Shown: piece by piece, positions 12,002 through 50,487 of the stretch
Position numbering within the stretch: position 1 is the first letter of the stretch
Layout of the letters: each line of letters begins with the position of its first letter
From: a virus
IMG/VR virus record: IMGVR_UViG_3300021585_000002
Span: 1 to 50,487 of that record
Strand: one strand, 5' to 3'
Length of the DNA stretch: 50,487 bases
Notes under the pieces: model-generated
What the model was told of the DNA's origin: nothing
Database searches by the model: none
The model's input: only the letters and a program-made list of their open reading frames with translations
Program-made: the position numbers and the translations under genes

Positions 12002-12002
12002 C

Positions 12003-13085: not shown

Positions 13086-13088
13086 GCC

Positions 13089-14015: not shown

Positions 14016-14016
14016 C

Positions 14017-15436: not shown

Positions 15437-15445
15437 GAGTAGGCC

Positions 15446-16999
15446 GTGGCCGCTGCTTTTCAAAGTAATGCGTTTCAGAACAACGCATTCCAGGCAGATG
15501 CCGGTGGCGCAAACATTGATTTTGATGCCGCAGCAGGTCTGTTCACGTACAGTGGACAGAACGCAACTCTTGCTGCCGCCAGAAACCTAAACGCCGAAGC
15601 TGGCTCTTTTACTTACACTGGTCAGGCTGCCACACTCCAGGCAGCCAGATCGGTCAATGCTGAAGCAGGCTCGTTCTCGTACACGGGTCAGAACGCAACG
15701 CTTCAGGCAGCAAAATCCATCAATGCTGAAGCTGGCGCGTTCTCATACGCAGGCCAAGCTGCAACGCTCACAGCAACCCGCAGCATCAATGCAGAAGCGG
15801 GTTCTTTTGCATACACCGGGCAAGCCGCAACTCTACAAGCGGCACGCAATGTAAACGCTGAAGCGGGAACATTTGCATACACCGGCCAAGATGCTACGCT
15901 TACGGCGGCACGTAGTGTTAACGCTGAATCTGGTGCGTTTACATACACCGGTCAAGACGCCAGCCTTACAGCAACGCGGAGCCTTAACGCCGAAGCGGGT
16001 TCGTTTGCGTATACAGGCCAAGACGCAAATTTCACGGCCACACGCAGCCTCAATGCTGAAGTTGGCACCTTTGCCTACACAGGCCAAGACGCCGCCTTCA
16101 TCTATGTACAAGCCAAGGGACTTGATGCCCAGGCTGGGACATTTACATACACGGGCCAAGACGCCACATTGGCGCAGACCCGCAGCCTGAACGCTGAAGC
16201 AGGAACATTTAGCTACACAGGTCAGAACGCCACGCTTTCAGCGGGCCGTGTTGTAAACGCTGAGTCCGGAGCGTTCACATACACCGGCCAAGATGCAGCG
16301 TTTCTGCTCGGGCTAGTTATCAACGCGGAAGCTGGCTCCTTTGCCTACACGGGCCAGGACGCAAGTCTTGTAGCAAACCGTAGTGTCGATGCACAAGCCG
16401 GGACGTTCACCTACACCGGTCAAGATGCAACGCTACAGGCCGCCAAGAACCTCAACGCAGAGGCTGGCAGTTTTGCGTACACAGGTCAGGACGCCACGCT
16501 GCAGACTGATCGGGTCGTTAATGCGGAAGCTGGAGCGTTTACATATACAGGCCAGGATGCGTCGCTCATAGCATCGCGCAGCCTTAACGCCGAAGCCGGT
16601 ATTTTTGTTTACACCGGTCAAGACGCCGTTTTTAACGTCTCTCGGGTTGTCGATGCACAGCCTGGATCGTTTGACTATCTAGGCCAGCCTGCCACGTTCT
16701 CGCGCACGAACCAGATCAACGCCGAAGCAGGCGCGTTTGGTGAAGCCAATCCATATGTGGAACCAGGGTACGTTGACCCGTACTATTCCACCAACCTGAC
16801 AGCGGCGCTTGGCTATGGCAGGATGTTCAACGCTGAGGCCGGTGCCTTTGCGTATCTGGGTCAAGATGCAACTTTTATCAAAGCCTTCTTATTCCCTCCA
16901 GAAGAGGACGTAAAAGCAGGTGTTGTCTATGGCCCAGGCGGTATCTACACGGGCACTTACGCACCTGCAGGCAGAGCCATCTTTATATTTGACGACTAA
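15446..16999 (+). CDS. Virion protein built of about twenty 22-residue repeats
   Basis: The 517-residue protein starts with GTG after AGGAG. A short N-terminus with the repeated NAFQ unit (FQSNAFQNNAFQ) is followed from about residue 26 by roughly 20 copies of a 22-residue unit, consensus LNAEAGSFAYTGQDATLTAT then RS. The last copies are diverged and interrupted by an insert (VEPGYVDPYY). The C-terminal 35 residues (EDVKAGVVYGPGGIYTGTYA onward) differ and resemble C-terminal caps in phage proteins. The repeat has an aromatic/Gly/Gln core and would form a long beta structure, perhaps a solenoid fibre. The phage role is not shown; position suggests a tail fibre or surface protein. Confidence 0.65.
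   Translation: MAAAFQSNAFQNNAFQADAGGANIDFDAAAGLFTYSGQNATLAAARNLNAEAGSFTYTGQAATLQAARSVNAEAGSFSYTGQNATLQAAKSINAEAGAFSYAGQAATLTATRSINAEAGSFAYTGQAATLQAARNVNAEAGTFAYTGQDATLTAARSVNAESGAFTYTGQDASLTATRSLNAEAGSFAYTGQDANFTATRSLNAEVGTFAYTGQDAAFIYVQAKGLDAQAGTFTYTGQDATLAQTRSLNAEAGTFSYTGQNATLSAGRVVNAESGAFTYTGQDAAFLLGLVINAEAGSFAYTGQDASLVANRSVDAQAGTFTYTGQDATLQAAKNLNAEAGSFAYTGQDATLQTDRVVNAEAGAFTYTGQDASLIASRSLNAEAGIFVYTGQDAVFNVSRVVDAQPGSFDYLGQPATFSRTNQINAEAGAFGEANPYVEPGYVDPYYSTNLTAALGYGRMFNAEAGAFAYLGQDATFIKAFLFPPEEDVKAGVVYGPGGIYTGTYAPAGRAIFIFDD
15521..16889. repeat. About twenty 66-base coding repeats
   Basis: The DNA behind the 22-residue units. Amino acids are conserved but third codon positions differ widely between copies (for example GGCCAAGAT, GGTCAAGAC and GGTCAGGAC for Gly-Gln-Asp), so the units are old or under selection against recombination. 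Confidence 0.8.
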
Positions 17000-23020: not shown

Positions 23021-26000
23021 ATGTCGAATGGCGGATGGGGCTCAGGCTCCTGGGGTCAAGTTGCATGGGGGATGGGGCTCTATGATGGAGCCTCGTCTGA
23101 ATCCGCAACTGCCGCTGATTCCGCTTCTGCAAGATTAGTTTCCCCCCGCGCCGTCTCTGAGACGGCCACAGCCGCTGATGCAACGTCAGCGGTTTTTGCA
23201 GTACCCGCGTCTGTTTCTGAGTCTGCCACCGCAGCAGACTCGATTTCGGCTACACCAAAATACGCGAGAACTGAATCTGAGACAGCAAACGCATCTGATG
23301 CTGTCTCTGTAGCCGCCAGCACGTTCAGACCGTCTATTGCTGAGACGGCAAGGGCATCGGATACAGCGTCTTCAGCCTTAGTTGTTAGGCCGTCAGTCGC
23401 AGAAACGGCCACTGCAGCGGACACGGTCTCCGCCACCGAGACACTACGCCCAACAGTCTCTGAGACTGCAGCGGCGGCAGATGCAACGGTAGTCGCGTCC
23501 AGCACCTTCAGGCCCTCTGTATCAGAAACGGCCAGAGCCAGTGACTCCGTATCAGTCGCAGGCAGCACGTTTAGACCGACTCTGTCAGAGACAGCAACGG
23601 CGGCTGACTCTGTAACTGCCAGAGAAATACTAGTCCCAACGGTTGCCGAGACAAGCACCGCTTCGGACTCCGTATCGGTCGCCGCCAGCACATTCAGGCC
23701 AACGGTTTCTGAGTCCGCTACTGCAGCAGACGCTACTTCATCGCGCACCGCCTTCGGTTCGTCGGTCTCAGAGACCACCACAGCGTCGGATGCTTCAACT
23801 GCAAGGCAGATATTCCAAGCCTACATAGGAACGTCTGGCTGGGGTTCTGGAGCTTGGGGCGGAGATCCTTGGGGGGGTTTGAACGACACAGCCGCGTCTA
23901 TCTCTGACTCGGTTGTTGCTTCGCCTGTTGCCAACGGCGCTGTCTCTGAGACTGCCAGGGCGTCAGACTCGGTATCCGTCGCAGCCAGCACGTTTAATCC
24001 AGCCATCTCTGAGACGGCATCAGCGTCTGACACGGTTGTAGCGAGGCAAACCTTTGTTACGTCAGTTAGCGAGACAGCCAACGCTTCTGACAGCATTAGT
24101 GCGGCACAGACAGCCAGAAGCACCGTATCAGAAACGGCAAACGCATCTGACTCCGTAGTTGCTAGGCAGGGCTTTACCTCCGCAGTTTCAGAAACTGCCA
24201 GAGCATCTGACAGTGTTAGCACAACGCAGACGTTTGTCTCGTCTGTATCAGAGACGGCAAACGCTTCTGATTCCGTAGTTGCGCGTCAGACATTTGCAAC
24301 GGCAGTTTCGGAAACGTCCACAGCACTAGATGCAGTAACTGCTAGACAAACATTTGCATCGTCTGAAAGTGAGACGGCAACTGCATTTGACAGTGTTAGT
24401 GCTGCGCAAACATTTAGTAACTCTGCATCTGAAACTGCCACAGCCTCTGACGCCACTTCATCGGCGCAAGGATTTGGTGTCTCTATATCTGAGACTGCCC
24501 GCGCATCAGATACAAGCTCCGCTGCTCAAACATTTGCCACAGCAATTTCTGAGACCGCTACAGCACTAGATGCTGTGGCTGCGCGGCAGGTATTTGCAAC
24601 GGCAGTTTCGGAAACGGCCAATGCGTCAGACGCAGTAGCGGCAGGGCAGTCATTCAGTACAAGTGCATCCGAGACTGCGCGTGCATCCGATGCGGTATCT
24701 GTAGCCGCCAGCACGTTTAACGCCTATATCGGCACTTCTGGTTGGGGTTCTGGTGCCTGGGGTGGAGACCCTTGGGGCGGCTTAAATGATACGGCAGCAA
24801 GTATCTCAGACGCCGTTTCTGCATCGCCTGCATTCTTTGGTTCTGTATCGGAGACGGTTAGAGCATCTGACGCATTTGCTGTTGCTGCAAGCACATTTAA
24901 CACCGCAGTATCTGAAACAGCTAGGGCGTCTGATTCTGTTGCGGTTAGCCAGACGTTTGTTACCGCCGTTAGTGAGACCGCAAACGTATCTGACAGTACT
25001 GCAGCTTCTCAAGCATTTGTTGCCGCTACATCTGAAACAGCCAGAGCATCTGACGCAGTTGCCGCATCCCAAAGTTTTGGGGCTTCTGTATCTGAAACAG
25101 CCAGAACCTCTGATGCAGTCAGTTCTGCGCAAGCGTTTAACACAGCAGTATCAGAGACAGCCAGGGCGTCCGACTCTGTATCAACCATACAGACGTTTGC
25201 TACAGCAGTATCAGAGACAGCTTCTGCATCGGACTCTGTCTCCGCAGGGCAAGTATTCGCTGCTAATACTTCAGAGACGGCTCGCGCATCTGACTCCGTA
25301 TCTGTAGCGTCTAGCGTCTTCAACGCCTACATCGGAACTTCTGGCTGGGGCTCGGGGGCTTGGGGTGAAGACCCGTGGGGCGGCTTAAACGACACCGCCG
25401 CAACTGCACTGGATGTAGTTTCTGCGTCCCCCGCATTCAATGCGTTTGCATCTGAAACGGCACAAGCCTCTGATGCTTTCGCGGTCGCTGCCAGCACGTT
25501 TAATGGTCTGGTTGCCGAAACTGCCACCGCAACAGACTCCGTAGCAGCCCGCCAAGTATTTGCAACGTCAGTAACAGAGACGGCCACTGCGGCGGATAGC
25601 GTTGTTGCCACCCAATCGTTCGTAGCGGCTGTATCTGAGACGGCAACTGCGGCAGACCAAACGCAGGCGTCTCAAGCGTTTACATCGGCTGTTTCTGAAA
25701 CGGCTAGGGCATCTGATACCGTTTCAGCGGCCCAGGCACCTACCTCAACAACTTCTGAAACCGCAACCGCATCTGACGCGGTTTCAACACAACAAGTCTT
25801 TGCCACAGCGGTCACAGAGAGTGCCACGGCTGCTGATAGCACATCAGCAGGGCAGCGTTTTGTAACCAACGTAGCTGAAACGGCCACAGCGGCTGACTCC
25901 GTATCTGTTGCCGCAAGCACGTTCAACGCATTTATTGGCACTCAAGGCTGGGGTTCCGGAGCCTGGGGTGAGGATCCTTGGGGCGGTTTAAACGACACTG

Positions 26001-26908
26001 CTGCGAGCGCTTCGGACGCGGTCTCTGCATCACCTGTGTTCTTCGGGGCTGTATCAGAGGCAGCACAAGCCTCTGATGCCTTCGCTGTCGCGGCCAGCAC
26101 GTTCAATCCAGCCGTAAACGAAGCTGCTGCCGTCTCTGACGCTGCGTCTGCACAGCAAATCTTCGCCACGGCAGTCTCTGAGAACGCACAGGCGTCTGAC
26201 GCTGTTGCATCAGGGCTTCTCTCATCGGCCAACATTTCGGAGACAGCAACAGCCAGCGATGTTGTTTCTGCTGGCAGCGTATTCAATGTAAGCGTCAGTG
26301 AAGGTGTAACTGCTGCCGACGCAGTCACGACCACGACCATCACGCCCGCCAGCGTGAGTGAGACTGCACGAGCCGCAGACTCCGTAGTTGCCAAGGTTGA
26401 CTGGCAAGCCAGCATGAGCGAAGCCGCTCAAGCGATGGAGTTGTTTGATGCTGGCAAGCTGTTCATTGCAACACTGCTGGAGCAGTGTGGGGCGTTTGAT
26501 TCAATCTTTGCCCAGAATCGCTGGCAGACCATTGACGACACGCAGAACCCTAACTGGCAAGTTGTCCCAGACGGACAGACGCCGGGGTGGCAGCACATCC
26601 AAGACTCGCAGACGCCTGGGTGGCAGCACATCAACGATACCCAGAGCCCTGCATGGCAATGCGCCACCACCGCTCAAACCCCAACCTGGGTCTTAGTAAC
26701 TGACACACAAGCGCCTGGGTGGCAGTGTGTCACCACCGCGCCATCCCAGCCGTGGCAGAATGTAACAACTGCACAAGCGCCGGTATGGCAACCCACGCCC
26801 CCCGCCCCTCTTGACGGCTGGCAGAATGTAGACGATGATCAGTCTGCCGGGTGGCAAGATGTGGAGAGCCCTGAGTCAGCCGAGTGGGCTGATATTGATA
26901 CGGGCTAA
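23021..26908 (+). CDS. 1295-residue repeat protein with Trp-rich modules
   Basis: The protein starts NGGWGSGSWGQVAWG and then holds about 50 copies of a roughly 20-residue unit with the core SETA-(T/R/N)-A-SD-(S/A)-V-(S/A)-A. Four spacers of the type YIGTSGWGSGAWGGDPWGG (near 23822, 24725, 25328, 25931) divide the array. Their spacing is exactly 301, 201 and 201 codons, so there is a higher-order repeat. From 26522 a different repeat of about 12 residues (core DTQ-P-WQ-V-D) with Trp is present ten times. The Ala/Ser/Thr core with few hydrophobics suggests a long flexible or beta-rich fibre. The ATG follows the previous stop by 3 bases. Function is unknown; fibre or surface protein likely. Confidence 0.65.
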   Translation: MSNGGWGSGSWGQVAWGMGLYDGASSESATAADSASARLVSPRAVSETATAADATSAVFAVPASVSESATAADSISATPKYARTESETANASDAVSVAASTFRPSIAETARASDTASSALVVRPSVAETATAADTVSATETLRPTVSETAAAADATVVASSTFRPSVSETARASDSVSVAGSTFRPTLSETATAADSVTAREILVPTVAETSTASDSVSVAASTFRPTVSESATAADATSSRTAFGSSVSETTTASDASTARQIFQAYIGTSGWGSGAWGGDPWGGLNDTAASISDSVVASPVANGAVSETARASDSVSVAASTFNPAISETASASDTVVARQTFVTSVSETANASDSISAAQTARSTVSETANASDSVVARQGFTSAVSETARASDSVSTTQTFVSSVSETANASDSVVARQTFATAVSETSTALDAVTARQTFASSESETATAFDSVSAAQTFSNSASETATASDATSSAQGFGVSISETARASDTSSAAQTFATAISETATALDAVAARQVFATAVSETANASDAVAAGQSFSTSASETARASDAVSVAASTFNAYIGTSGWGSGAWGGDPWGGLNDTAASISDAVSASPAFFGSVSETVRASDAFAVAASTFNTAVSETARASDSVAVSQTFVTAVSETANVSDSTAASQAFVAATSETARASDAVAASQSFGASVSETARTSDAVSSAQAFNTAVSETARASDSVSTIQTFATAVSETASASDSVSAGQVFAANTSETARASDSVSVASSVFNAYIGTSGWGSGAWGEDPWGGLNDTAATALDVVSASPAFNAFASETAQASDAFAVAASTFNGLVAETATATDSVAARQVFATSVTETATAADSVVATQSFVAAVSETATAADQTQASQAFTSAVSETARASDTVSAAQAPTSTTSETATASDAVSTQQVFATAVTESATAADSTSAGQRFVTNVAETATAADSVSVAASTFNAFIGTQGWGSGAWGEDPWGGLNDTAASASDAVSASPVFFGAVSEAAQASDAFAVAASTFNPAVNEAAAVSDAASAQQIFATAVSENAQASDAVASGLLSSANISETATASDVVSAGSVFNVSVSEGVTAADAVTTTTITPASVSETARAADSVVAKVDWQASMSEAAQAMELFDAGKLFIATLLEQCGAFDSIFAQNRWQTIDDTQNPNWQVVPDGQTPGWQHIQDSQTPGWQHINDTQSPAWQCATTAQTPTWVLVTDTQAPGWQCVTTAPSQPWQNVTTAQAPVWQPTPPAPLDGWQNVDDDQSAGWQDVESPESAEWADIDTG
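23093..26445. repeat. About fifty 60-base coding repeats in a higher-order array
   Basis: The DNA of the SETA/SD array. The protein unit is conserved, but codons vary (GAGACGGCC, GAAACAGCC, GAGACTGCC and others for Glu-Thr-Ala). Trp-containing spacers give periods of 903, 603 and 603 bases. Confidence 0.85.
26522..26905. repeat. Ten short Trp-containing coding repeats
   Basis: The C-terminal array of the same gene, with a unit near 36-39 bases, each with one Trp (for example QTPGWQHIQD and QSPAWQCATT). It could form a solenoid cap or ligand-binding end. Confidence 0.75.
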
Positions 26909-36257: not shown

Positions 36258-39200
36258 ATGGCTCTTCCGCTGTATCAAACGCTATCTTCTCAAGAACAGT
36301 TTGAGCGTCTTGGCGCAGCCATGCCGACCGGGTGGGAAACCACCACAGACCCACTTGCAAGAATCAACTTACTCAACCAACTTGGTGTAAGTGGGGATCA
36401 GCTAAGAGATGTCCTTGGGTACTCTCAAGGCGATGTTGATTGGATGCAAAGCAAGGGTCTGGGAGTTCCTGCTCCCACCCCTGCGCCAACTCCAGCCCCA
36501 ATACAACAGAACGCTTATCAAACCCTGGCACAAGAGCCTGGATTTGACACCGATGCATATACATACGAAGACCTCGTATCTGATTACGTTGCCCCGACGC
36601 CGACTCTGGCTCCAACACCCGCGCTCAATCAATACGGATATTCCGAAGAAGATTGGAATGCTTTTAGCCCTGAAGCGCGTAGTTTTATCGAGCGACCAGA
36701 AACCGCAAATCTTGGTCGTGGCACGGACACCAGGGATTTCCTTGGTGATGATATTCAAATCAATAAGGAAATAGGACAAACAGGCGATAGTTGGTCTGGT
36801 AAAACTACAACTTACCAAGCATATGATGCCTACGGTAACCCAACGCAAACATTTGATGTTTCTGAGAGTGGCCTAAAAGAAGGCTTGGCTATAGCGGCTA
36901 CTATGGCCGCTTCAATGGCTACGCTAAACCCGGCATTTACCGCTGGGATTGGTGGAACTATTGCATCCACACTAGGTATCCAGGGGTTATCTGCAGCGGC
37001 AACATCGGCTCTTGGTAGTGCTGCTGTTAATGCAGCAGTTACGGCTGCAAAAGGTGGCAGTTTTGAAGATGTTTTGCAAGCAGCAGCAGCAAGCGGGCTT
37101 GGAAGCGTAGCGGCAGAAAAAGTTGCTGCGTTTGCAAACTCGGCTGGCTCTCAAGTTGCAAGCCAACTAAACAGTTCTGCACTTGGCCAAGCCGTAACAA
37201 GCGGCATCACTGCGGGTGCGCGGGCACTCCCATCGGCGATTGCAACCGGTGACTTTGGCAACGTCCTGACCAGCGCACTGACTGGCGGAGCCACGGCAGG
37301 CATTACCACGGGTATTTCCAACCTGACTGGGTTTACACCGTCTGAGATCAATGCTGCTGTAAACATTGCACAGGGTGCTGCGTCTGGTGACTATGCCAAG
37401 ATGCTGGCGGGGGCTGGTTCGTTTACGGATAGCCCAATCCCTGGCCTTGCTTCCAAAGCCTTGACGCTGAAAGAAGCGGTTGAGTCTGGTAATCCAACAA
37501 GGATCATGTCAGCCATGCAGGGCTTTGGCTCTGCGATGGATGCGTACAACAACCAGCAGGCACGAGACAACAGCAAGACAGACACAGGCGACGAAACCGC
37601 CCGCCTTCAGGCCCGTTATGGCACTGCAGATGACGCAGTCATCAAGCAGATTGAGGCCATGTCTCCCAAGACAACTGGCCCTGCCGGCACAACGGCAGAT
37701 GTTGAGCAGGCTCTGTACGAGGATGTGCTGAGACAAGCTCCGTCTGTTACAGAGTCCACCATCACGCCTGAGGAGTTGGCTCGGATTGTCAGCGGGGACA
37801 CAGCGCCTACGGCCAAAACAACTACCGAAACAACCGCTCCGGTCCAAGGCCCATACGACAAGTATGTTGACTTCGGTGAGGCGTTCCGCGCAGCCAGAAG
37901 CGTGCTTGGTGCTGGCAAATCGTTTACATGGACCGATCCGATCACCGGCTCAACAAAGACTTACACAACGGACTACGCTCCTGCCGCACCAAAGGATGCA
38001 GGTGCCGGAAGAGGTATCGCACCAGGGGTGACTGCAGCAAATGCAGCACAGCTTTCTGCAATTCCGTTGCGAACAGAAACTGCGCGAACTGTTTCAACGC
38101 CTAAGTTGACCGACACAGATTCCGGCATTGACTATTCTGCCGCTGCTACTGATATGCAGGGAACCGCGCCAAGTGCAGACGCAACATATGCAACGCTAAG
38201 TCAAAACGCACAGAGCCTTGCCAATGCCGCTAAGGGCACTGCTTTCCAAACGCCGACAGCGCTAGTATTAGATGCCGTGTCCCAATTGGGGACATCGTTT
38301 TCGTCTGCCTTTGGCGGCGTAGGTAAAGACAATACAACTCTGCAAGAGTTTAAGAAAATACAAGATATTGCAACAAGCATAACGCCTGATGCTGTTTTAA
38401 AAGATCTTGCAAGCCTTAACAAGAGTATTCAAAGTGCTGATGGCGTTCTGCAAACATTAGGTGCAGTTGGCGCAGGTATTTATAAGCAACCTTTAGCAAT
38501 AGGTTGGCAAATTGGCTCTGAAATTGTTCAAGAAATACCATTGCTTGGTATAGGCAAGGCAGTTCAAGTTGGTGCTAAAGCTCTTGAATTTAGCAAAAGA
38601 ATTGCCGATACCTTGGGTGTCACTACTTCGGTGGCGTCCAATATGCTGGAAAACGGCGGGTCCGCAAGAAACGAGACTTATGACGCTACGCAAGCACTAT
38701 TAAAAGACAGCGTAAAGTCTGGACAAATTACACAAGTAGAAGCTGACACGATTGCGCAAAAGCAAGCAGACAATGCTTTTGTTAAATCAATGGCAGTGAC
38801 TGGTGCAATATCGTTTATACCCGGTGGCACCGCCCTGGAAAAACGCATTATTGTTGGCGGCGCAGTAAATGACGCCAAGAGTGCCATTACAACCGGCTTG
38901 AAGGTTGCGGCAAAAGAAACAGTTCCAGAAGGCGTGGAAGAGGGTGCCACAGACTATATAACTCAAGGAGAGTCATTAAGGTCTATTGGCAAGGGATACG
39001 CAGATGTAAGCCCAAGTCAAGTTGCTGCTGCAACAGGTCTAGGCGCAATCATTGGCGCTGGGTCTTCTGGCAGTATTGCCACGGGCGCAGGTGTTGTTGA
39101 CACTTTGAGTGGGTCAACAGGTGCAGCCGCCACGGAGCCTGGAGTAGCGCAAACCGTCTCATCTGGCGATGTAACAAAACCCGCAGTCAAAACAGAGCCA

Positions 39201-40412
39201 ACATTTGACCCCAACACTGTGGTTGCCACAGATCCAGATACGGGCGATACGTTGACTCTTGGTGATTTAACCGGCTCAACTATTAGTTCTGCTGGCACCA
39301 CCACAAAGATTGACCCAACTTTAGAGCCACTAAGTGACACTGAGCTTGACAGCGACCAGATCATCAATGACTACATCAATGAAGTCCTTGGTGGCAATGC
39401 GCCTGCAACAAGCTCAACGGAGAATGTTGTTTTAGGCACTGATCCAGATACTGGGGCAGAAGTCACGATGGGTGACTTGGGCTTGACGCCAAAAACCACA
39501 ACTGAAACTGCGCCTGATTTATCTACGCCTATTGCAACAGATCAAAACACAGGTGAAGTGATTACGCTTGGTGATGTAACGGCAACAACCGCTCCAGATA
39601 CAACACCCAAGACTGAGGCCACATCAGATACCGCACCCAAGCCGGATACGCGGCCCGACACACAGCCTGATGTCCAGCCGGACACACAACCAGAACCGGA
39701 CACAACACCTGATGTTGCCCCGGATACTGCTCCTGATACGGCACCAGATACCGCACCAGACACGGCTCCCGACACAGTCCCGGATGTTGCGCCAGACACG
39801 GCTCCTGATACTACGCCTGACGTAACTCCTGATACTGCTCCAGACACCACTCCGGACACCACTCCGGACACCACGCCGGACACCACGCCGGACACTGCTC
39901 CGGATACCGCGCCTGATGTGGCTCCGGACACCACGCCAGATACCACGCCAGATACCACGCCAGATACCACTCCTGATACCACGCCTGATGTAGCGCCGGA
40001 TACGACACCCGACACTGTGACGGACACCACTCCAGATACAAAAACAGAAATACCTCCTGAAGTTAAGCCGCGTGTGAGCGTTGAACCCCCAACGCCTGAA
40101 CCTACCCCCGCTCCTACGCCTGCACCAACTCCGCCGCCTCCTGCGCCGACACCAGCACCTCCGGCTCCAACTCCTGCGCCGACACCTGCTCCTACGCCTA
40201 AGCCAGCGACTACGTCTAAACCCAAAGCCCCTAGTCCTGCGCCTAAGCCTCAGGCACAATCACCGCAGATGACTCCAGAGCTTGCAGCGTTTATTCAGGA
40301 ACTGATGCGGACAGAAGAAGCGGATCTGGAAGCAATGACGATGGTGCGCAAAGCAGAGCGCGAAGAAAAGCGCAAAGGCGCTCGTGAAAAACTGAAGTCT
40401 AGAAAGGCTTGA
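36258..40412 (+). CDS. 1384-residue virion protein with PDT repeats
   Basis: The N-terminus (about 1-75) has a globular helical pattern (LARINLLNQLGVSGDQLRDV) followed by Ala/Pro-Thr linkers. Residues about 210-420 are Ala/Gly-rich and hydrophobic, resembling membrane-interacting or ejection-channel parts. A unit TDPDTG...TLGDL occurs three times near 990-1110. Then a xPDT tetrapeptide array (about 1128-1263) and a Pro/Ala/Thr run (PTPAPTPAP) lead to a basic helical C-terminus (ADLEAMTMVRKAEREEKRKG). Such composition fits a large injected protein or internal core protein. The next gene starts 3 bases after its stop. Confidence 0.6.
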   Translation: MALPLYQTLSSQEQFERLGAAMPTGWETTTDPLARINLLNQLGVSGDQLRDVLGYSQGDVDWMQSKGLGVPAPTPAPTPAPIQQNAYQTLAQEPGFDTDAYTYEDLVSDYVAPTPTLAPTPALNQYGYSEEDWNAFSPEARSFIERPETANLGRGTDTRDFLGDDIQINKEIGQTGDSWSGKTTTYQAYDAYGNPTQTFDVSESGLKEGLAIAATMAASMATLNPAFTAGIGGTIASTLGIQGLSAAATSALGSAAVNAAVTAAKGGSFEDVLQAAAASGLGSVAAEKVAAFANSAGSQVASQLNSSALGQAVTSGITAGARALPSAIATGDFGNVLTSALTGGATAGITTGISNLTGFTPSEINAAVNIAQGAASGDYAKMLAGAGSFTDSPIPGLASKALTLKEAVESGNPTRIMSAMQGFGSAMDAYNNQQARDNSKTDTGDETARLQARYGTADDAVIKQIEAMSPKTTGPAGTTADVEQALYEDVLRQAPSVTESTITPEELARIVSGDTAPTAKTTTETTAPVQGPYDKYVDFGEAFRAARSVLGAGKSFTWTDPITGSTKTYTTDYAPAAPKDAGAGRGIAPGVTAANAAQLSAIPLRTETARTVSTPKLTDTDSGIDYSAAATDMQGTAPSADATYATLSQNAQSLANAAKGTAFQTPTALVLDAVSQLGTSFSSAFGGVGKDNTTLQEFKKIQDIATSITPDAVLKDLASLNKSIQSADGVLQTLGAVGAGIYKQPLAIGWQIGSEIVQEIPLLGIGKAVQVGAKALEFSKRIADTLGVTTSVASNMLENGGSARNETYDATQALLKDSVKSGQITQVEADTIAQKQADNAFVKSMAVTGAISFIPGGTALEKRIIVGGAVNDAKSAITTGLKVAAKETVPEGVEEGATDYITQGESLRSIGKGYADVSPSQVAAATGLGAIIGAGSSGSIATGAGVVDTLSGSTGAAATEPGVAQTVSSGDVTKPAVKTEPTFDPNTVVATDPDTGDTLTLGDLTGSTISSAGTTTKIDPTLEPLSDTELDSDQIINDYINEVLGGNAPATSSTENVVLGTDPDTGAEVTMGDLGLTPKTTTETAPDLSTPIATDQNTGEVITLGDVTATTAPDTTPKTEATSDTAPKPDTRPDTQPDVQPDTQPEPDTTPDVAPDTAPDTAPDTAPDTAPDTVPDVAPDTAPDTTPDVTPDTAPDTTPDTTPDTTPDTTPDTAPDTAPDVAPDTTPDTTPDTTPDTTPDTTPDVAPDTTPDTVTDTTPDTKTEIPPEVKPRVSVEPPTPEPTPAPTPAPTPPPPAPTPAPPAPTPAPTPAPTPKPATTSKPKAPSPAPKPQAQSPQMTPELAAFIQELMRTEEADLEAMTMVRKAEREEKRKGAREKLKSRKA
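39640..40045. repeat. xPDT coding repeat array
   Basis: Tandem four-codon units, mostly Thr/Ala/Val-Pro-Asp-Thr, with varying codons. The array would form an extended, flexible acidic linker. Some local runs (for example 39840-39900 and 39940-39990) are nearly identical in DNA, so slippage is possible here. Confidence 0.8.
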
Positions 40413-40414
40413 TC

Positions 40415-42115
40415 ATGGAAGACGATTATGTTGTTACCCCTGGCGGCGTTGTCAGTGTTGGGGGAGAGCCATATGTTGATCCCGCTCTAGACTACTCCAC
40501 GCTTCTGCCCACATCAGATCCTTTGCCTGCTGGCAGTTATGACATTGACAAGGATCTTGCAAGCTGGACTGGCGGTGCAAAAGATATTCTTGGCTCTTAC
40601 AAGAAGCTCTTTGAAAAGATCAAGTCAGGCAATGCGGGGGCTACTGAATACGCCGCTGCCGCTGGCATCCTTGGCCTTTTGATGCCAAGTCTTAACCAGC
40701 CCAAGACCAAGGGCTGGAAGGGATCAGTTGACTTAAATCGTCAGTTCACCCGCACGCCCATTGCTCAGCCTGTGTTTACACCGTATGCGCAAAGCGCTGC
40801 TCCGGTGATGGGACGACAGTTCTTCAACTCGACGTATGGTGCTGCGCCTGCTGCGGCACCTGCTGCTCCCGCACCTACTACGCCACCGACCTTTCCTGAT
40901 GCAACTCTTCCGGGGACTCTTGTCCCGCAAGAGCCAAACTATGCAGAGTCGGCTGGCGCGGCAGAAGGTGGCCTGATGGGCTATGCCCGTGGTGGCAAAG
41001 CGATGCCTCCTCGTTACTTGCGCGGACAAACTGATGGCATGGCAGACAAGATTCCCAGCAATATTGATGGGGTCCAACCTGCCAAGCTCAGTCACGGTGA
41101 GTTCGTGATCCCTGCTGATGTGGTTTCCCACCTTGGGAATGGCAACTCTGATGCTGGAGCCAAGGTTCTGTACAAGATGATGGACCGCGTTCGTCAGGCC
41201 AGGACCGGCAACAAGAAGCAAGGTAAACAGATCAACCCGGAGAAATTTACACCGGGCGGCATTGCTGGCTATGCCGGTGGTGGTGCTGTTGCGTTCCAGA
41301 CGGGCGGAACAACTGCGCCGCTGGGTGCTTCTAGTGAGCAGAACATCTCTGAATGGGCTGGTCCCTATGTAGGCGACATGCTCAGCAAGACTGCTGCGTT
41401 GACCAACACGCCTTACCAAGCCTACCAGGGTCCGCTTGTCGCTGGCACCTCACCGCTGCAGAGCAAGGTGTTTGGCGGCCTAGAGAGCTTGAGCTTCCCC
41501 GGACAACTGGGGCAGTCGTTTACAGCACAAGGTGCGTATCAACTGCCCAGCATGACTTCTACGGGGGTCACCGGTCAAACTACAGGGCCTACTGGCATCG
41601 CGTCTCAGTACATGAATCCGTACCTAAACGCTGTGCTGACGCCTCAACTGGAAGAGCTTCGCCGTCAGTCTCAGATCACGCAGATGGGCACGGCTGGCAA
41701 ACTAGCCCAGGCGGGTGCGTATGGCGGTTCTCGTCAGGCCATCATGGACGCCGAGACCCAGCGTAACCTGCTGCAAGAGCAAAACAAGGCCATTGGTACT
41801 GGGTATTCCAACGCTTATGACCGGGCGATGGGTCAGTTCAACACTGAGCAGCAACAGGCCAGAACTCTTGCAGACATGATGGAAGAGGCTGGTCAGAAGC
41901 AACGCGGCATCGAACAAGAAGGCATCACCGCAATCCAGAAGCAGTACGAGACTGAGTTGCTTGATCCGTTTACAAAGCTGCGATTCCAGAAGGAAATGCT
42001 GCAAGGTCTGCCGGTTGCGACTGCTTCCACCACTGCCAATCAATCCACGATGGGGCAGCTTGGTTCCGGGTTTGAGAACATTGGCAAGTTGATGAAAGAA
42101 CTCGGCCTTTCCTGA
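40415..42115 (+). CDS. Internal virion-type protein
   Basis: The 566-residue protein starts at ATG 40415 (a TTG at 40409 is in frame but weak). It has an Ala/Pro-rich middle and two Gly-Gly elements (GYARGGKAMPPRYLRG near 193-208 and GYAGGGAVAF near 288), with PAKLSHGEFVIPADVVSHLG (about 226-245) between. I recognise this last motif from large virion proteins of environmental podoviruses. The C-terminal 200 residues are helical with Gln-rich stretches. The group of three large genes here probably makes internal or ejected virion parts. The leader has AAAGG. Confidence 0.65.
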   Translation: MEDDYVVTPGGVVSVGGEPYVDPALDYSTLLPTSDPLPAGSYDIDKDLASWTGGAKDILGSYKKLFEKIKSGNAGATEYAAAAGILGLLMPSLNQPKTKGWKGSVDLNRQFTRTPIAQPVFTPYAQSAAPVMGRQFFNSTYGAAPAAAPAAPAPTTPPTFPDATLPGTLVPQEPNYAESAGAAEGGLMGYARGGKAMPPRYLRGQTDGMADKIPSNIDGVQPAKLSHGEFVIPADVVSHLGNGNSDAGAKVLYKMMDRVRQARTGNKKQGKQINPEKFTPGGIAGYAGGGAVAFQTGGTTAPLGASSEQNISEWAGPYVGDMLSKTAALTNTPYQAYQGPLVAGTSPLQSKVFGGLESLSFPGQLGQSFTAQGAYQLPSMTSTGVTGQTTGPTGIASQYMNPYLNAVLTPQLEELRRQSQITQMGTAGKLAQAGAYGGSRQAIMDAETQRNLLQEQNKAIGTGYSNAYDRAMGQFNTEQQQARTLADMMEEAGQKQRGIEQEGITAIQKQYETELLDPFTKLRFQKEMLQGLPVATASTTANQSTMGQLGSGFENIGKLMKELGLS

Positions 42116-43695: not shown

Positions 43696-46600
43696 ATGGC
43701 TATTCGCATCCAGCTTTTTGATGGGTCGCTTCTTGAGTTCCCTGATAACACCCCTCAGGATGTTATTGATCGAGTAGCCAAGCAAGAAACACTGGCCCGT
43801 CAGCCCGCTCCGCAACCTCGACCTGTCATTGAGCCCCCTAAGAAAGAGGGGGTGATGGCTGCGTTTGGCAAAGGGCTAGAAAGCCTGCTGGGCTCTAGCC
43901 GCACTGCCGTTGGTGCGTTTACAGGATCTCCTGAAGAAGCTGCCCTGGCTGCTCTGGAGAGGCAGAAGCAGTCTCCCTACGCCGACCAAGTCAGCTTAGA
44001 GAAGGTCTCAGAGGCTGCTAAACGAGGCCTGCTGCCCGCCGCTGGTGAGGTCGCTAGGCAGGTGCCTCTGGCTATTGCTGAGCAGGCTCCGAACGTCCTG
44101 GCAACACTTGGTTCTGCCAAGGCTGGCTCTTTGCTTGGCGCAAAGCTGGGGACGGCTGTCGCGCCTGGAGTTGGCACAGTAGTTGGAGGTATCGGCGGTG
44201 GCATCTTGGGAGCGCTTACCCCGTCTTTGCTCCAGCAGTTTGGCGGGAACATCCAGCGTCAAGCCCAAGAGCAGCAAGCTCAAGGCAAGCCCATCGACAT
44301 CAGCAGGACATCAGCAGGCTTGGCTGCTGTGCCCCAGGCAGGTCTTGATGTTGCCGCATCCCTAATCCCACTGGGCAGGACGTTTGCTGGCAAGGTTCTA
44401 GGCCCGCAAGTTGAAGAACTGTTGAAACGCGGGTCAGTTGAGGGCGCAGAGCGTTTAGCTCGTGAGAGCCTGCCCACTGTGTTGGGCAAGGGTGCTGCGA
44501 TCAGCATCGCTACTGAAGTCCCGACCGAAGTTATCCAGACCATGCTTGAGCGCTCTCAGGCTGGTCTTGCCCTGACCACCCCGGATGCTTTGGCTGAGTA
44601 TGGCAATGTGGCATACCAAGCTGGTCTACTTGCGCCTATTGGTGCTGTGGGTCGTGTGGGTGAGCGTGCTGCAGCGCGGAGTGAAGCTCTTCTGCCCGGT
44701 CAACGCCGTGGTGAGTCCGATATGGACTTCGCCAACCGGCTGAGTCAAGAGATCGGGAATGATCGTGCTTATGTTGCAATGCAGCAAGCAGAGCAGGCAG
44801 AAGCCGCTAAGCGTCAAGCTGCACTGGAGCAGATGAAACAGGCCATCGGTGATGGCTTGCTGACGCCCGAGGTGGTTAAACAGTGGGGCTTTGGGAAAGG
44901 CTCCATCTTTGATTCCCTGGTCAACAAGAACCTGAGCAATCCTGAGGATGCGTCCTTTGTGGCCGATGTCTTGGCCGCGTACCGGCCTAAGGCTCACCCC
45001 AATACGCAGGTCAAGATTGATGATGCGCTGGCTGGCATTGAAGCCATGTTTGGTGCCAAGCCAACCTCGCAAACTGAAGGAGCAGCAGATGTTGGAACGG
45101 CTATCACCGAACCAAGTGGAGCGGGCGTTCAAGTGGCTGGCGAGCCCAGTGCAGGAGCCACCACCCCAAGACTTGGAGCCCCTGAACCAGCAGGAGTGGT
45201 TCCTCCTGTCGAGGATGCTAGACAACCTGCTGGAGGAGCAGAAGCAGCACCGCCTGCAGTAGCTCCGCCTCTTGCGCTGCCTGCGCCTGTTGAGCCTGAA
45301 GTAGTTACTCCTGCCGCAGAAGCCGTCACGCCGCCAACAGAGCCGGTTGTTGAAACGCCTGCTGCTGAGAAGCCCGTTGAAGCGCCGGCTGCTCAGAAAC
45401 CTGCTGTTGAGTTGCCCAAGTCATTGCAGGATATGTCTCCTGCAAACAGGCAGTTGTATGAGCTTGATCGCAACATAGAAGAAGCGAAGACTCCTGCATC
45501 TGGTATTGACTGGGAAATCAAGGACACGCTTGCCCCAGAAGAGAGGGGCATGACATTTGAAAGCGCGACCGACCAGCTTAACTCGTACTTGGCTGGCATC
45601 AAAGATCTTGACGGTAAGCTACGCAGTGGCAACAGGACTGGCTCCACCCCAGGTCGTTTGATTGAGATGTGGAAAAACGCTTCGCAAACGCAGGCGTTTA
45701 TAGAGCAGCAGAAACAACAGAAACCCGAGCTTTGGGCGAACTATCAAGCTCGTCAAGCTGATGTTGCCAATCTCAAGGAGGGTGATGCAGTTATCACGCC
45801 CAATGGCGAACAAGCCATCCTTGATAAGAAGTTCCCAAAGAACTGGCGAGTTAAGCTCCCCAATGAAGAGATGCGGCTGTACCCGCCAACCAGCTTTAGA
45901 CGCGCAGAGCCTGCCGCTAAGCTATCGGCAGCACAGATCCCCAAGTACAAGATTGTTCAAACGCAAGTCGAGGGTTTGGACGGCAAGATCAAACGCGCCT
46001 GGAATGTTGTTGATGCCAAGGACGACTACATACAAGACACGTTTGATACGCGGGCAGAAGCTCAAGACTGGGTCCGTGGCGTAAAGGAAAGAGCAGCCAA
46101 GCCATCACTGGCTGAAGAAGCCAAGCCGCTGCCCATCACACCCGAGATACAGGAAAAGATTGATCAACTTGAGAAGGTTCTCAAGAAGATCATGAACAAG
46201 TACGGCCTGAAGGATGTTGCCCTCAAGCTGATCGACAACATGAAGGCAGAAGGCGAGTACGCACAGAGCGTGGTTCGTCTGGCCCTGGATGCTGTAAACC
46301 CGGTGCAGGCCTTGAGGCATGAGTCCATCCATGCTCTGAAGGAACTGGGCTTCTTCTCTCCACAACAATGGGCAGCACTTGAAAAGCAAGCCAAGAGCAA
46401 GTGGATTGATCAGTACCTTAAGACCAAGAACATCAACAAGGAAGACCTAGAGGAGGGCCAGAAGTCCCGCTATGACGCATACATGGAGCTTTACAAGGGC
46501 GACATGGACGCGATCATTGAAGAGGCAATTGCTGATGCCTTTGGGGACTTTGATGTAAACAAGGCTCCTCCGGGCCTGATGCAAGCCATCCTGACCCGGC

Positions 46601-49600
46601 TGCGTAACTTCTTTGATGCGGTCAAGACTGCCTTTGGTGGTGAAGTCACCGCAGAGCAAGTGTTCCGTAAGGTTGAGAAGGGTGCTCTGAAGGCGGAGGC
46701 TAAGGCAGAAGCTGCCCCGGCTAAACAAAGTTTGCGTGAAGTTCCTCTGTCCACTCGTGGGTTGATGGAAGTTCAGCCCATCGTAGCGATGCAGGAGCTT
46801 GGGCTCAAAACAGATGCTGTCCGCAAGCCGGGTGGCATTGAGTTGTTTAACGATGTCCGCTCCATCGCTCTTGCACTTAATCAAGACACCATCCGAAACA
46901 AGGGCAAGATCGCCAAGACCGATACCTCATTGACCTCGGAAAAAGAACTTGCGAGGGCAATGGTTGATGAGATTGGCTACCAGCTAAAAGCAACTGCAGG
47001 GACCGGCACTGGCAAAGGTTGGTACTCGGACAACTATCCCAAGGCAGTTAAGAAGCTGGGCAAGCTGTTCCCAGAGCTTGAGACAGATCCATATGCCAGA
47101 ACTGTTTTCTCTGCATTGGTTGCTATTACCTCCAATGGCGAGAAAGTATCTCTCAACGTAAAGAACGCCATTAAGCTCTACGAAGACATTCGTATGGGCA
47201 AAGACCCGCGTAATATTGGTTCTCGCCGCAAAACTGCACTGGATAATAACATTGCAGTTGTCATGCAGCTAATGAAGCAATATGGTCCCACTGGAATGCG
47301 CAATGAATTATTGCGTGAGATTACAGTTAAGGACATGAACGCTATCCTGCGTTCACGCGGAGAAAAGCCCGATACCTCTTATCTTGCGGATACCAAAGTA
47401 CCTGCTGCGGCATTGTATTTCGGGCCAAAGCTAGGCGCATTCTTCTCCAATCTTGAAGGCGCAGAGGGCTATCTGACGATGGATATGTGGTGGACCCGGA
47501 CGGTTAACCGCATGCGTGGGCAGTTGGAATCAAAGGCCACCGAAGCGTCCATCAAGAAGTTTGCCGCGATGATGGATAAGCCAAATGCCACCCGAGATGA
47601 GGTGGTGGCGGCAACCATCCCGCTGCGTAACAAATATGAAGAGTTTGGCTGGCACACTGAACTAGAAGAGTTAGTGGGCCGCAAAGAGCCAGCAGAAGAT
47701 AAGGACAAGCCAGCCTGGACGGCAAGGGCGAAGCGTCAAGCTGGCCCCGCATATGAAGCTCTCTTGTTTGAACATCGTCTTGAGAAGATGGCTAACACCA
47801 TCTACAAGAACGAGTATGAGTTGCTGGAAGAGGCTCCGTTTACATCCACCGACCGAGAGTTCATGTACCGCACGGCTAGGCGGACTCAGAGCCTGCTCAA
47901 GGCCGAAGGCATTAACCTGTCACTAGCAGACATCCAGGCCGCTCTCTGGTACTACGAGAAGCGTCTGTATCAACATTTGAGTGGAAGGAAAGCAGATGAC
48001 ATCGGATACGACGAAGCCATCACCCAACTCGCAGGGGAAAGTACTCGACCCGCAGGACCCTCTGTGGTCTTCGCTGGACAACCTGTTTCTGGGGCTGGAG
48101 CCACAGGAGCGGGCGCAGCAGTTGCTGGAGTTAGTGCGCAGCCTGTCCAGCTAAAGCCAAGCCTGCGTGAAAAAGCATCCTGGGATGACAAGCGCATTGA
48201 GCGTTTAATTGATCAATACGGCTACACCGATGGGCGTACCTACGGTATTGCTGCGTATGTAAACCCGGAAGAGTTTGTCCGCGCAACCACTCCGTCCAAA
48301 GAGTTTGCCGATGAACTCAAGGCAGAGGCTGGGGCACTTGACCGCGATCAGATAGCCAAAGAAACTCAAACGCCATTCTTGGAATGGGACATTGAGAAGG
48401 GCGTCATCGTTGGTCATGAAGGCAGGCATCGTATGTCTGCGCTTTCTGCTGAAGGTGTTGAGTCTGCCCCGGTCGTGCTGTACGTCAAGGATCGGTATGG
48501 CTCTAAAAAGCCGGATCAGTATGAGCGCCAGGATTCTGTATCCATCAAGGGGCAGAAATTCCAAGACGGTGTTGGCAGACCTCTGACGGCCACCAACCTG
48601 ATTCCACTTGAGTACAGGCAGGCCAAGTCACTGAGAGAAGAATTTGCCGCAGCGGCTGGTGTTAAGTACAGCCTGCGCGTAAACATCCCGGCAAGCGCAC
48701 GCGCACGGGTTGTTGCCACTATTGCCTCCCGTCAAGAGAAGGGCTTTGTTGAGCGCCTCATGGAGGCGATCTCTCCAACGTCCTACTCCGACTTCCGTGC
48801 CCAGGCTCTGAACCGCTACAACCAGCTTGGTGTTTACGACAAGATCCGCGCCAAGAAGATGGGTGGTGCTGCGCTGCTTGCTGATTCCAGCGCTGAGTCT
48901 GCTGCCCTGCTGTCTGACCTGGGTGCTGGTCTAACCGCTTCCGCGCTGGGTGTGCATGACCGGATGGGTGGCATTCCTGTGTTCAGGAACGGTATCACCA
49001 TCATCAGCAACCAAAACGGCACGATCAAAGGCCCGACCGCGATCTTTGCCCCGTTGGCTGCTGATCCGGCTCATTATCAGGACTATCAGTTCTGGGCTGG
49101 CGTGAAGCGTGGTTCGCGCTACATGCAAAACCCACAAGGCAAGTACGAAGAGAAACTGTTTACACCATCAGACGTCAAAGAGGCGGAAGTAATTCGCAAG
49201 GCATACCTCAAGGCGGGGATTGACTTTGAGGCCATGCAAAAGGAGTGGATCAAGTACAACGACGGTCTCGTCCAGTACATGGTCGATACCGGCGTGCTCT
49301 CACAGGAGCGTGCTGACCTGTACCGTAAACACGCAGACTATCTGCCCTTCTATCGGCAGATGGACGGCAGAGAGACCATTGGCCCGAAGGTTTTCCAAGC
49401 CATCTCTGGTGTCAAGCCGCCTAAAGCCGCTAAGGGTGGAGAGGCCCTGCTTGATGACTTTTTAGAAAACATTGTCCGCAACACTCAGTCTGCGATCCAG
49501 GCTGGCGTCAAGAATGTCGCAGCCCAAAGAGCCGCCAAGGTGGCTATGGACATCGGCATGGCATCGCGGCTGGGCTTCAAGTCCTCCGCAGCCGGAACCT

Positions 49601-50487
49601 TTGATGTTCTGGAGAACGGTCAGGTTGTCACGTACCAATCAAAGGATGAGCTTTTCATCAACGCCATCAAGAGCCTTGGTATTCCTGACCTGCCGTTTAT
49701 AGGACTGTTGTCTGGCCCCGCGAACTTGCTTCGCAATCTGGTAACCAAAGACCCAGGCTTCATGCTTGCCAACCTGATGCGTGACTCAATGTCCGCATGG
49801 GTTACCTCCGGCGTGAAGATGACCCCGATGGTAAACACCTTCACCAACTTTGGTGCTGCTATCGCAGGCAAAGACCCGGCCTTCCAAGCTCTGATGAACG
49901 CAGGCATTTTGGGTGGCTATGAGTTCTCGCAGAACGTGGAGCAGAGCGGGCGTGAGTTCGGCAAGGCTCTGAGGAAGCAAGCCAAGATCAAGTCCACCGG
50001 GCTCAAGGGCGCAGCAGAGATGGGCGCTAAGCCGTTTACATCTCTGTGGGATGCGCTGGAGAAAGGTTCCACTGCATCTGACGCAGCCACTCGGATGGAG
50101 GTCTACAAGCGCACGCTGGCCGAGACCAACAACGAAGCAGAGGCTCTGTTTAGAGCGCTTGAGGTGATGAACTTCAACCGTAAAGGATCTTCTGCTGTCG
50201 TAAGAATTCTTACCGCTGCGGTGCCGTTCTTAAACGCACGCATGCAGGGCCTGGATGTTCTGTACCGCGCAGCTTCGGGGCAGATGAACGCTCGTGATGC
50301 AGCGCAGATCCAGAAGCAGTTCTTTGTGCGCGGCGCAATGATTGCATCCTTGTCTGCCGCTTACTGGCTGCTGACGCATGACGATGAGGAATACAAGAAG
50401 CAGGAGCAGGAGACAAGAGACAACTACTGGCTTCTTCCTTCGCTGGGCGTCAAGATCCCGATCCCCTTTGAAATCGGTGTGTTGTTC
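43696..50487 (+). CDS. Giant polyvalent-like protein, incomplete at the window end
   Basis: The open frame runs without stop for 2264 codons to the last base. It starts MAIRIQLFDGSLLEFPD, an N-terminal pattern of phage virion proteins. Residues about 105-235 are Ala/Gly-rich with hydrophobic stretches. A metallopeptidase-like site HESIH (875-879) is followed 63 residues later by EEAIADAF (942-949), a plausible third-ligand element. A second region near 1259-1275 (YLTMDMWWTRTVNRMRG) and the segment GHEGRHRMSAL (1573-1583) recall domains of phage polyvalent proteins; the latter may be ParB-like. The region 1756-2040, including ADLYRKHADYLPFYR (near 1876) and DPGFMLANLMRDSMSAW (2019-2035), resembles LPD38-type polyvalent-associated sequence. 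Polyvalent proteins are delivered with phage DNA to counter host defences. Domain names are from memory and need a profile search. Confidence 0.7.
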   Translation, partial: MAIRIQLFDGSLLEFPDNTPQDVIDRVAKQETLARQPAPQPRPVIEPPKKEGVMAAFGKGLESLLGSSRTAVGAFTGSPEEAALAALERQKQSPYADQVSLEKVSEAAKRGLLPAAGEVARQVPLAIAEQAPNVLATLGSAKAGSLLGAKLGTAVAPGVGTVVGGIGGGILGALTPSLLQQFGGNIQRQAQEQQAQGKPIDISRTSAGLAAVPQAGLDVAASLIPLGRTFAGKVLGPQVEELLKRGSVEGAERLARESLPTVLGKGAAISIATEVPTEVIQTMLERSQAGLALTTPDALAEYGNVAYQAGLLAPIGAVGRVGERAAARSEALLPGQRRGESDMDFANRLSQEIGNDRAYVAMQQAEQAEAAKRQAALEQMKQAIGDGLLTPEVVKQWGFGKGSIFDSLVNKNLSNPEDASFVADVLAAYRPKAHPNTQVKIDDALAGIEAMFGAKPTSQTEGAADVGTAITEPSGAGVQVAGEPSAGATTPRLGAPEPAGVVPPVEDARQPAGGAEAAPPAVAPPLALPAPVEPEVVTPAAEAVTPPTEPVVETPAAEKPVEAPAAQKPAVELPKSLQDMSPANRQLYELDRNIEEAKTPASGIDWEIKDTLAPEERGMTFESATDQLNSYLAGIKDLDGKLRSGNRTGSTPGRLIEMWKNASQTQAFIEQQKQQKPELWANYQARQADVANLKEGDAVITPNGEQAILDKKFPKNWRVKLPNEEMRLYPPTSFRRAEPAAKLSAAQIPKYKIVQTQVEGLDGKIKRAWNVVDAKDDYIQDTFDTRAEAQDWVRGVKERAAKPSLAEEAKPLPITPEIQEKIDQLEKVLKKIMNKYGLKDVALKLIDNMKAEGEYAQSVVRLALDAVNPVQALRHESIHALKELGFFSPQQWAALEKQAKSKWIDQYLKTKNINKEDLEEGQKSRYDAYMELYKGDMDAIIEEAIADAFGDFDVNKAPPGLMQAILTRLRNFFDAVKTAFGGEVTAEQVFRKVEKGALKAEAKAEAAPAKQSLREVPLSTRGLMEVQPIVAMQELGLKTDAVRKPGGIELFNDVRSIALALNQDTIRNKGKIAKTDTSLTSEKELARAMVDEIGYQLKATAGTGTGKGWYSDNYPKAVKKLGKLFPELETDPYARTVFSALVAITSNGEKVSLNVKNAIKLYEDIRMGKDPRNIGSRRKTALDNNIAVVMQLMKQYGPTGMRNELLREITVKDMNAILRSRGEKPDTSYLADTKVPAAALYFGPKLGAFFSNLEGAEGYLTMDMWWTRTVNRMRGQLESKATEASIKKFAAMMDKPNATRDEVVAATIPLRNKYEEFGWHTELEELVGRKEPAEDKDKPAWTARAKRQAGPAYEALLFEHRLEKMANTIYKNEYELLEEAPFTSTDREFMYRTARRTQSLLKAEGINLSLADIQAALWYYEKRLYQHLSGRKADDIGYDEAITQLAGESTRPAGPSVVFAGQPVSGAGATGAGAAVAGVSAQPVQLKPSLREKASWDDKRIERLIDQYGYTDGRTYGIAAYVNPEEFVRATTPSKEFADELKAEAGALDRDQIAKETQTPFLEWDIEKGVIVGHEGRHRMSALSAEGVESAPVVLYVKDRYGSKKPDQYERQDSVSIKGQKFQDGVGRPLTATNLIPLEYRQAKSLREEFAAAAGVKYSLRVNIPASARARVVATIASRQEKGFVERLMEAISPTSYSDFRAQALNRYNQLGVYDKIRAKKMGGAALLADSSAESAALLSDLGAGLTASALGVHDRMGGIPVFRNGITIISNQNGTIKGPTAIFAPLAADPAHYQDYQFWAGVKRGSRYMQNPQGKYEEKLFTPSDVKEAEVIRKAYLKAGIDFEAMQKEWIKYNDGLVQYMVDTGVLSQERADLYRKHADYLPFYRQMDGRETIGPKVFQAISGVKPPKAAKGGEALLDDFLENIVRNTQSAIQAGVKNVAAQRAAKVAMDIGMASRLGFKSSAAGTFDVLENGQVVTYQSKDELFINAIKSLGIPDLPFIGLLSGPANLLRNLVTKDPGFMLANLMRDSMSAWVTSGVKMTPMVNTFTNFGAAIAGKDPAFQALMNAGILGGYEFSQNVEQSGREFGKALRKQAKIKSTGLKGAAEMGAKPFTSLWDALEKGSTASDAATRMEVYKRTLAETNNEAEALFRALEVMNFNRKGSSAVVRILTAAVPFLNARMQGLDVLYRAASGQMNARDAAQIQKQFFVRGAMIASLSAAYWLLTHDDEEYKKQEQETRDNYWLLPSLGVKIPIPFEIGVLF

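Follow-up and report, generated by a model that had tools for sequence, protein, structure and literature searches.

The analysed window is the entire IMG/VR record IMGVR_UViG_3300021585_000002, 50,487 bases in length, and a giant gene runs up to its end (Table 1). The open reading frame starts with ATG, encodes 2264 residues and is still open at the contig end. A search of viral contigs with the window protein returned 16 loci, one of which (L002, ORF 8001-15569) contains the complete protein of 2522 residues, shows 100% identity to the window protein over residues 1-2264 and supplies the 3' end missing from the window. In the complete copy, Pfam identifies LPD38 at residues 2230-2407 (131.6 bits, E 4.9e-38; cut-off 27); in the window protein, cut by the contig end, the same domain scores 19.6 bits. 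Circular permutation was considered and rejected, since translation of the window's first open frame did not yield the missing C-terminus. The first-pass annotation of this DNA had described an open frame of more than 2264 residues with HESIH...EEAIAD and GHEGRHR segments and LPD38-like C-terminal parts, located behind probable ejected proteins, and had called the product polyvalent-like. All of this was borne out, the motifs lying at residues 875, 942-947 and 1573-1579.

The giant gene is positioned two genes behind a match to a PHROG annotated as DNA ejection protein. The phage also has matches to terminase, portal, capsid, SU10-type adaptor, tail-fibre, endolysin and ejection proteins. A 1384-aa gene upstream of the ejection-type genes (36258-40412) matched nothing in Pfam or PHROG within the limits applied, and the sole match of a 1295-aa gene (23021-26908) is a PHROG of unknown function. 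Pfam matches to DUF3139, HBS1_N, FRB_dom, Ciart and similar families were discarded as under the cut-offs or implausible. Judged by its domains, the protein is a phage polyvalent protein, a class already described: LPD38 is present in the full-length copy, and ART-PolyVal, ddrB-ParB and GP88 modules are present in relatives. With an ejection-protein match nearby as context, the protein may be delivered into the host together with the DNA.

Table 1. Features of the polyvalent protein gene and its surroundings in the window
Feature	Residues	Position	Strand	Basis or remark
Upstream gene, DNA-ejection-protein match (context)		40409..42115	+	phrog_4287, E 3.4e-6
Polyvalent protein gene	1-2264 of 2522	43696..50487	+	contig end interrupts gene
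N-terminal part	1-801	43696..46098	+	blastp map of relatives
Mark 1, KPSLA	802-806	46099..46113	+	in low-confidence linker
HExxH metallopeptidase-type module	807-1009	46114..46722	+	alignments of 12 relatives and of 93 sequences
HESIH	875-879	46318..46332	+	H, E, H invariant in 93/93
EEAIAD, candidate third metal ligand	942-947	46519..46536	+	both Glu invariant in 93/93
Mark 2, KQSLR	1010-1014	46723..46737	+	module border
HhH-GPD (OGG / endonuclease III)-like module	1015-1486	46738..48153	+	AlphaFold2, VIA-align, invariant Lys/Asp
Candidate Schiff-base Lys	1245	47428..47430	+	54/54 aligned sequences reaching the column
Candidate catalytic Asp	1263	47482..47484	+	54/54 aligned sequences reaching the column
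Mark 3, KPSLR	1487-1491	48154..48168	+	module border
GHEGRHR module, perhaps ParB/Srx-like	1492-1656	48169..48663	+	alignment; weak PFIN matches
GHEGRHR	1573-1579	48412..48432	+	conserved in module alignment
Mark 4, KYSLR	1657-1661	48664..48678	+	module border
Constant C-terminal part	1662-2264 (to 2522 in L002)	48679..50487	+	common to relatives
LPD38, first 35 residues		50383..50487	+	Pfam

Pairwise alignments showed that two parts are constant across the relatives: the HExxH stretch (about residues 805-1014) and, at the C-terminus, the last 870 residues. The regions ahead of and separating these parts are variable, and there relatives hold ART-PolyVal (in as many as three stretches), ddrB-ParB, GP88 or other modules. 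At the N-terminus, ~170 residues are alignable in some relatives, beyond which lie stretches that vary from relative to relative and a Pro/Ala-rich linker. The exchangeable stretch of the window protein consists of two modules, residues 1015-1486 and 1492-1656. By prediction, several unrelated activities reside in one chain (the HExxH, HhH-GPD-like and GHEGRHR modules). Because the ART-PolyVal profile matched in only 3 of 398 genomes, too few for a co-occurrence comparison, viral contigs were used. Among the loci, the same protein is encoded by one ORF in L016 (1051-8841), by two overlapping ORFs in L014 (4467-12820) and by several fragments in L015, reflecting recent decay, a frameshift site or an assembly error. 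Three records named for phages of three hosts (OQ594354.1, OL906435.1 and PP438419.1) have the identical length of 65014 and the same match, and are probably one phage under three names.

The alignment of 93 sequences of the HExxH module has only nine invariant columns, five of which are accounted for by the HESIH residues H, E and H and by both Glu residues of EEAIAD. Because so few columns are invariant and the HExxH and downstream Glu belong to them, the motif is not a chance occurrence, and the invariance of these residues in all the aligned sequences makes a metallopeptidase likely. The profile of the 93 sequences also matches another, distinct HExxH domain carried by the relative L011 (E 8.5e-5, probability 60%) from the N-terminal helix through the HExxH, and the HExxH domain in L214 (E 3.9e-4, probability 35%). 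The AlphaFold2 model of the module (93-row alignment, pLDDT 81.7) places both HESIH and EEAIAD in helices, and is all-helical with no three-stranded sheet. Neither Foldseek nor VIA-align listed a zincin for either of the two models covering this region, and no Pfam peptidase family scored above the cut-off for the module. The zincin fold expected around residue 875 is thus supported by the residue conservation and by the profile matches to HExxH domains of polyvalent proteins, but not by the all-helical model, which lacks a zincin match. We weighed the residue conservation above the fold model as the stronger evidence for a putative zincin-type peptidase, the invariant residues being those expected of an active metallopeptidase of the zincin kind.

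The module of residues 1015-1486 lies directly behind the peptidase in many relatives. An AlphaFold2 model of residues 795-1492 (46 alignment rows) has high confidence over most of this module. The first nine rows of the VIA-align comparison are all HhH-GPD proteins with Z from 11.7 to 6.6, and the next row has a Z of 3.7, with the caveat that helical models can reach such values by chance and that the module was folded within residues 795-1492 rather than alone. MjOgg ranks highest (Z 11.7, 202 residues aligned, target length 214), AGOG and PUGT are among the top nine, and OGG1 has a Z of 6.6. Foldseek found nothing in the PDB at E <= 0.001 for the same model. OGG1 and endonuclease III use a catalytic Lys/Asp pair of the kind that is invariant in the module, where one fragment does not reach the two columns. 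In the window stretch GPKLGAFFSNLEGAEGYLTMDMWWTRTVNRM, the Lys and the Asp are 18 apart, a spacing also present in the endonuclease III homologue L241, and the context GPK...N...D...R resembles that of the superfamily. An hhalign comparison with Nth places K on K and D on D but is statistically empty (probability 0.5%, E 0.12), and the comparison with Ogg-HhH gave no match.

In contrast to known HhH-GPD enzymes, the module spans ~470 residues, is embedded in a polyvalent chain and, among the Pfam and PDB sequence hits listed, shows none to the superfamily. No HhH-GPD family is among the 25 of 42 Pfam families listed for the module, and PDB sequence searches with four profiles gave nothing convincing and no HhH-GPD match. 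The Pfam family DUF7178 (PF23802; 193 positions, function unknown) is matched by 35 of the 46 alignment members with a best E of 6.6e-9, the window copy scoring 12.6 bits against a cut-off of 27. The fold comparisons indicate that the module quite probably adopts the HhH-GPD fold. Base excision as its activity is perhaps evenly poised, the main alternative being a base-modifying role by analogy with PUGT (gp46 of phage PaMx11), a phage DNA-modifying enzyme with the same glycosylase fold (VIA-align Z 7.8 to the predicted model). PUGT works in a thymidine-hypermodification pathway, and no gene of such a pathway was named in the Pfam scan of ten window proteins. The suggestion that the protein may hold an undescribed effector is partly upheld by this stretch, which has no Pfam match above the cut-off and, as modelled, resembles HhH-GPD DNA glycosylases. 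A distant copy of the glycosylase-like module occurs in a cultured phage, Limnohabitans phage DC33 (L327, PQ492659.1), whose 39-kb genome encodes a 3125-aa protein with glycosylase-like and ART modules; the filing of this record under Inoviridae looks wrong.

The GHEGRHR module is a separate swappable cassette, with 28 distinct stretches among the collected ORFs and 223 candidate stretches in the viral collection, and it often ends in the short peptide described below. A reading of GHEGRHR as a second metal site was rejected, as the motif belongs to a separate module with conserved G, R and R beside the H and E. The Arg residues of HEGRHR are kept, and 3 of 24 members have weak PFIN matches (best E 0.018); no PDB sequence match was found for the module. 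The weak PFIN matches and the conserved Arg residues suggest a ParB/Srx fold, perhaps that of a ParB-like nuclease or NTPase.

Reading of the module borders showed that nearly all the modules, in the window protein and likewise in its relatives, are separated by a repeated peptide, [KR]-x-S-L-[RK], termed here the mark. Its fuller consensus is (N-P-D-I)-[KR]-[YFALKP]-S-L-[RK]. In a first set of 16 sequences, [KR]xSLR occurs in 39 copies and five permutations of it in 0 to 4. The mark was thus discovered in the window's own relatives and then counted on a larger set, in which 83 loci gave 81 with an ORF and 68 after removal of duplicates, with several discovery contigs and some truncated ORFs included; the relatives used were the best 80 of 206 and the best 80 of 223. 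These 68 non-redundant peptidase-bearing ORFs (184,217 aa) contain 161 copies of [KR]xSLR vs. 4-15 for five permutations of SLR. The tripeptide SLR itself is observed 209 times vs. 43 expected from shuffles, is present in 62 of the 68 ORFs and is the second most enriched tripeptide.

The positions of the mark coincide with module borders. Among 186 [KR]xSL[RK] sites, 80% are located where the edges of BLAST alignments reach more than twice their average density, compared with 12% of random positions. This border preference is lost when the K/R is replaced, the values being 15% for [DE]xSL[RK] (n=20) and 17% for [AVG]xSL[RK] (n=40). All three marks covered by the AlphaFold2 model of residues 795-1492 are in stretches with pLDDT<50, which make up 16% of the model. 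When the linker behind the peptidase was anchored without use of the mark, K/R was found in 75, S in 69 and L/V/M in 71 of 93 sequences, with the neighbouring columns unconserved. Similarly, a relaxed mark is present in 39 of 60 peptidase-anchored linker windows, a count covering the ORFs where the peptidase anchor was found, vs. 8.9% of 1200 random windows. It is near certain that the mark denotes module borders. In one relative (L091, 5277-14462), the marks mostly have LSV or LSI in place of LSL (KLSVT, KLSVR, KLSVR, KLSIR and RLSVR), so that marks within one protein change together.

Comparison of complete ORFs of at least 1500 aa showed that the mark goes with the peptidase clade. The 80 ORFs with the clade contain 261 marks (1.10 per 1000 aa), with at least one mark in 76, whereas the 37 ORFs without it contain 18 (0.17 per 1000 aa), with at least one in 12. 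These 117 ORFs were kept from 172 non-redundant ones by dropping truncated and short ORFs, and the wider mark pattern, fixed after variants had been seen, was applied alike to ORFs with and without the clade. The P value of 7e-14 for the coupling ignores relatedness, as do the other co-occurrence statistics, which are uncorrected for kinship. Exceptions occur on both sides, with four of the 80 peptidase ORFs devoid of the mark and five of the 37 others having two or more, L294 among them with three; in the full set, two or more marks are present in 11 of 75 ORFs without the clade, at least three of which are cut at the 5' end. The same module also differs with its surroundings. The mark stands just upstream of the GHEGRHR module in 15 of 19 cases with the peptidase vs. 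3 of 25 without, and just upstream of the ART module in 72 of 128 vs. 1 of 8. For the HhH-GPD-like module, only 19 of 60 cases with the peptidase have the mark just upstream, the linker from the peptidase to this module often holding variants. Twelve LPD38 proteins without the clade have four single [KR]xS[LM][RK] matches in all, and 252 ORFs of neighbouring genes (141,012 aa) have six marks, or 0.04 per 1000 aa, the same figure as for the permuted control. The strict mark is missing from distant homologues of the peptidase in L100, in L099, which carries RFSIA variants, and in the cultured Ruegeria phage 45A6 (L326), where the peptidase module is present and the mark absent. These homologues fit either a changed specificity or no link between the two.

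Taken together, the sequence comparisons lead us to lean slightly towards the peptidase cleaving at the mark, which would make the protein a self-cutting polyprotein. The chain would consist of five blocks, an 800-residue N-terminal part, the HExxH metallopeptidase, the HhH-GPD-like enzyme, the GHEGRHR module and the LPD38 C-terminal part. It would be made late as a single chain, enter the particle along with the ejection proteins and be delivered. The peptidase would recognize [KR]-x-S-[L/V/M]-[R/K], in cis or between copies, and cleave the chain there or next to it, giving fragments of roughly 23, 52, 19 and 95 kDa (from residue counts) that would then act separately, most likely in, or en route into, the newly infected cell, with the second enzyme presumably acting on DNA bases. 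The region flanked by the constant peptidase and the constant C-terminus is swapped among phages, with the marks retained. Zincin processing of polyvalent proteins has been proposed by Iyer et al. (2017; PMC5512222), whose main-text passages on processing, where available, name no cut sites. The same source notes that N4 vRNAP has such a domain yet is packaged uncut, which counts against self-cutting. More tentatively, and with somewhat less than even confidence, the phages may represent a large group known from metagenomes with an injected self-cutting polyprotein, in which one constant metallopeptidase would cut at a [KR]xS[LVM][RK] code between exchangeable effector cassettes. Any cassette with the mark on its flanks could then be plugged in, and among the most frequent would be a virion-delivered OGG-like DNA glycosylase with host or phage DNA as its substrate during the first minutes of infection.

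The mark could instead be a joint that persists from cassette shuffling, in which a single ancestral linker was copied along with the cassettes and is never cut. The Ser codon of the mark is AGY in 93% of 228 sites vs. 33% gene-wide, so the marks probably share ancestry, as an inherited linker would. Marks within one protein are also slightly more alike at the x position than expected by chance (0.221 vs. 0.143, sd 0.022, in shuffles), and two permuted patterns are found near module edges too ([KR]xLRS, 27% of 15; [KR]xKLS, 59% of 17, which may overlap the mark). However, SLR is encoded by 55 distinct 9-mers, too varied for a homologous crossover site; the common Ser codon with so many DNA versions points to common descent with conservation at the peptide level. 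A neutral linker should not retain S and L while its flanks drift, and the same modules outside the peptidase clade are mostly without the mark. We regard an uncut inherited linker as rather unlikely.

Cleavage of the mark by another protease, either the phage head-maturation protease or a host enzyme, is improbable. Phage head proteases often trim packaged proteins, which supports this reading, and the basic residues on both sides of the mark would suit trypsin-like proteases. However, the mark tracks this peptidase clade, is at background level in the 252 neighbouring ORFs and, except for one KDSVK, is missing from the 11 other window ORFs checked. We give similarly little weight to the peptidase being an effector against host proteins and the mark a short signal by which each module is docked or sorted when it is packaged or ejected. 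Host targets are considered possible for polyvalent zincins in the available text of Iyer et al. (PMC5512222), and a signal in front of each module would likewise travel with the cassettes. However, a single polypeptide needs only one packaging signal, so that one per border fits separation better, and the association of the mark with the peptidase clade also argues against such a signal.

The window protein resembles the LPD38-type polyvalent proteins, as described in the accessible text of Iyer et al. (2017; PMC5512222), in being a giant multi-domain phage protein with an LPD38 C-terminus and an HExxH hub domain, in the ART and ParB cassettes of its relatives and in its proximity to a probable ejection gene. 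It differs from them in the repeated punctuation peptide and the HhH-GPD-like module; the portion of the main text available makes no mention of a linker, a glycosylase, OGG or base excision. With the zincin-like peptidases of polyvalent proteins (P1 DdrB, N4 vRNAP and ArdC), the HExxH module shares the HExxH, a Glu in a later helix and the proposed self-processing, whereas it has no Pfam peptidase match at the cut-off and its predicted model has no three-stranded sheet. The mark was not found in print in a literature search that lay outside most subscription journals, preprints and supplements, and the mark and the glycosylase-like cassette appear to be new as far as that search reaches.

Processing of polyvalent proteins by HExxH domains has been proposed since 2017, and the mark supplies candidate cut sites that would make the proposal testable. 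If the mark is a cut site, module borders and released effectors could be read from sequence in uncultured phages, and unidentified cassettes could be delimited one by one. With a glycosylase-like cassette, the tools that phages may deliver ahead of any gene expression would come to include base excision or base modification. In the laboratory, a phage peptidase that cuts site-specifically at a short sequence could find use as a reagent.

A 3933-aa polyvalent ORF in L294 (1813-13611; also L322) is without the HExxH clade and carries three RYSLK/RFSLK marks together with HEIAGH, an HExxxH motif. A search for relatives of this protein gave four loci, and its HExxxH possibly represents a second peptidase type that uses the same mark.
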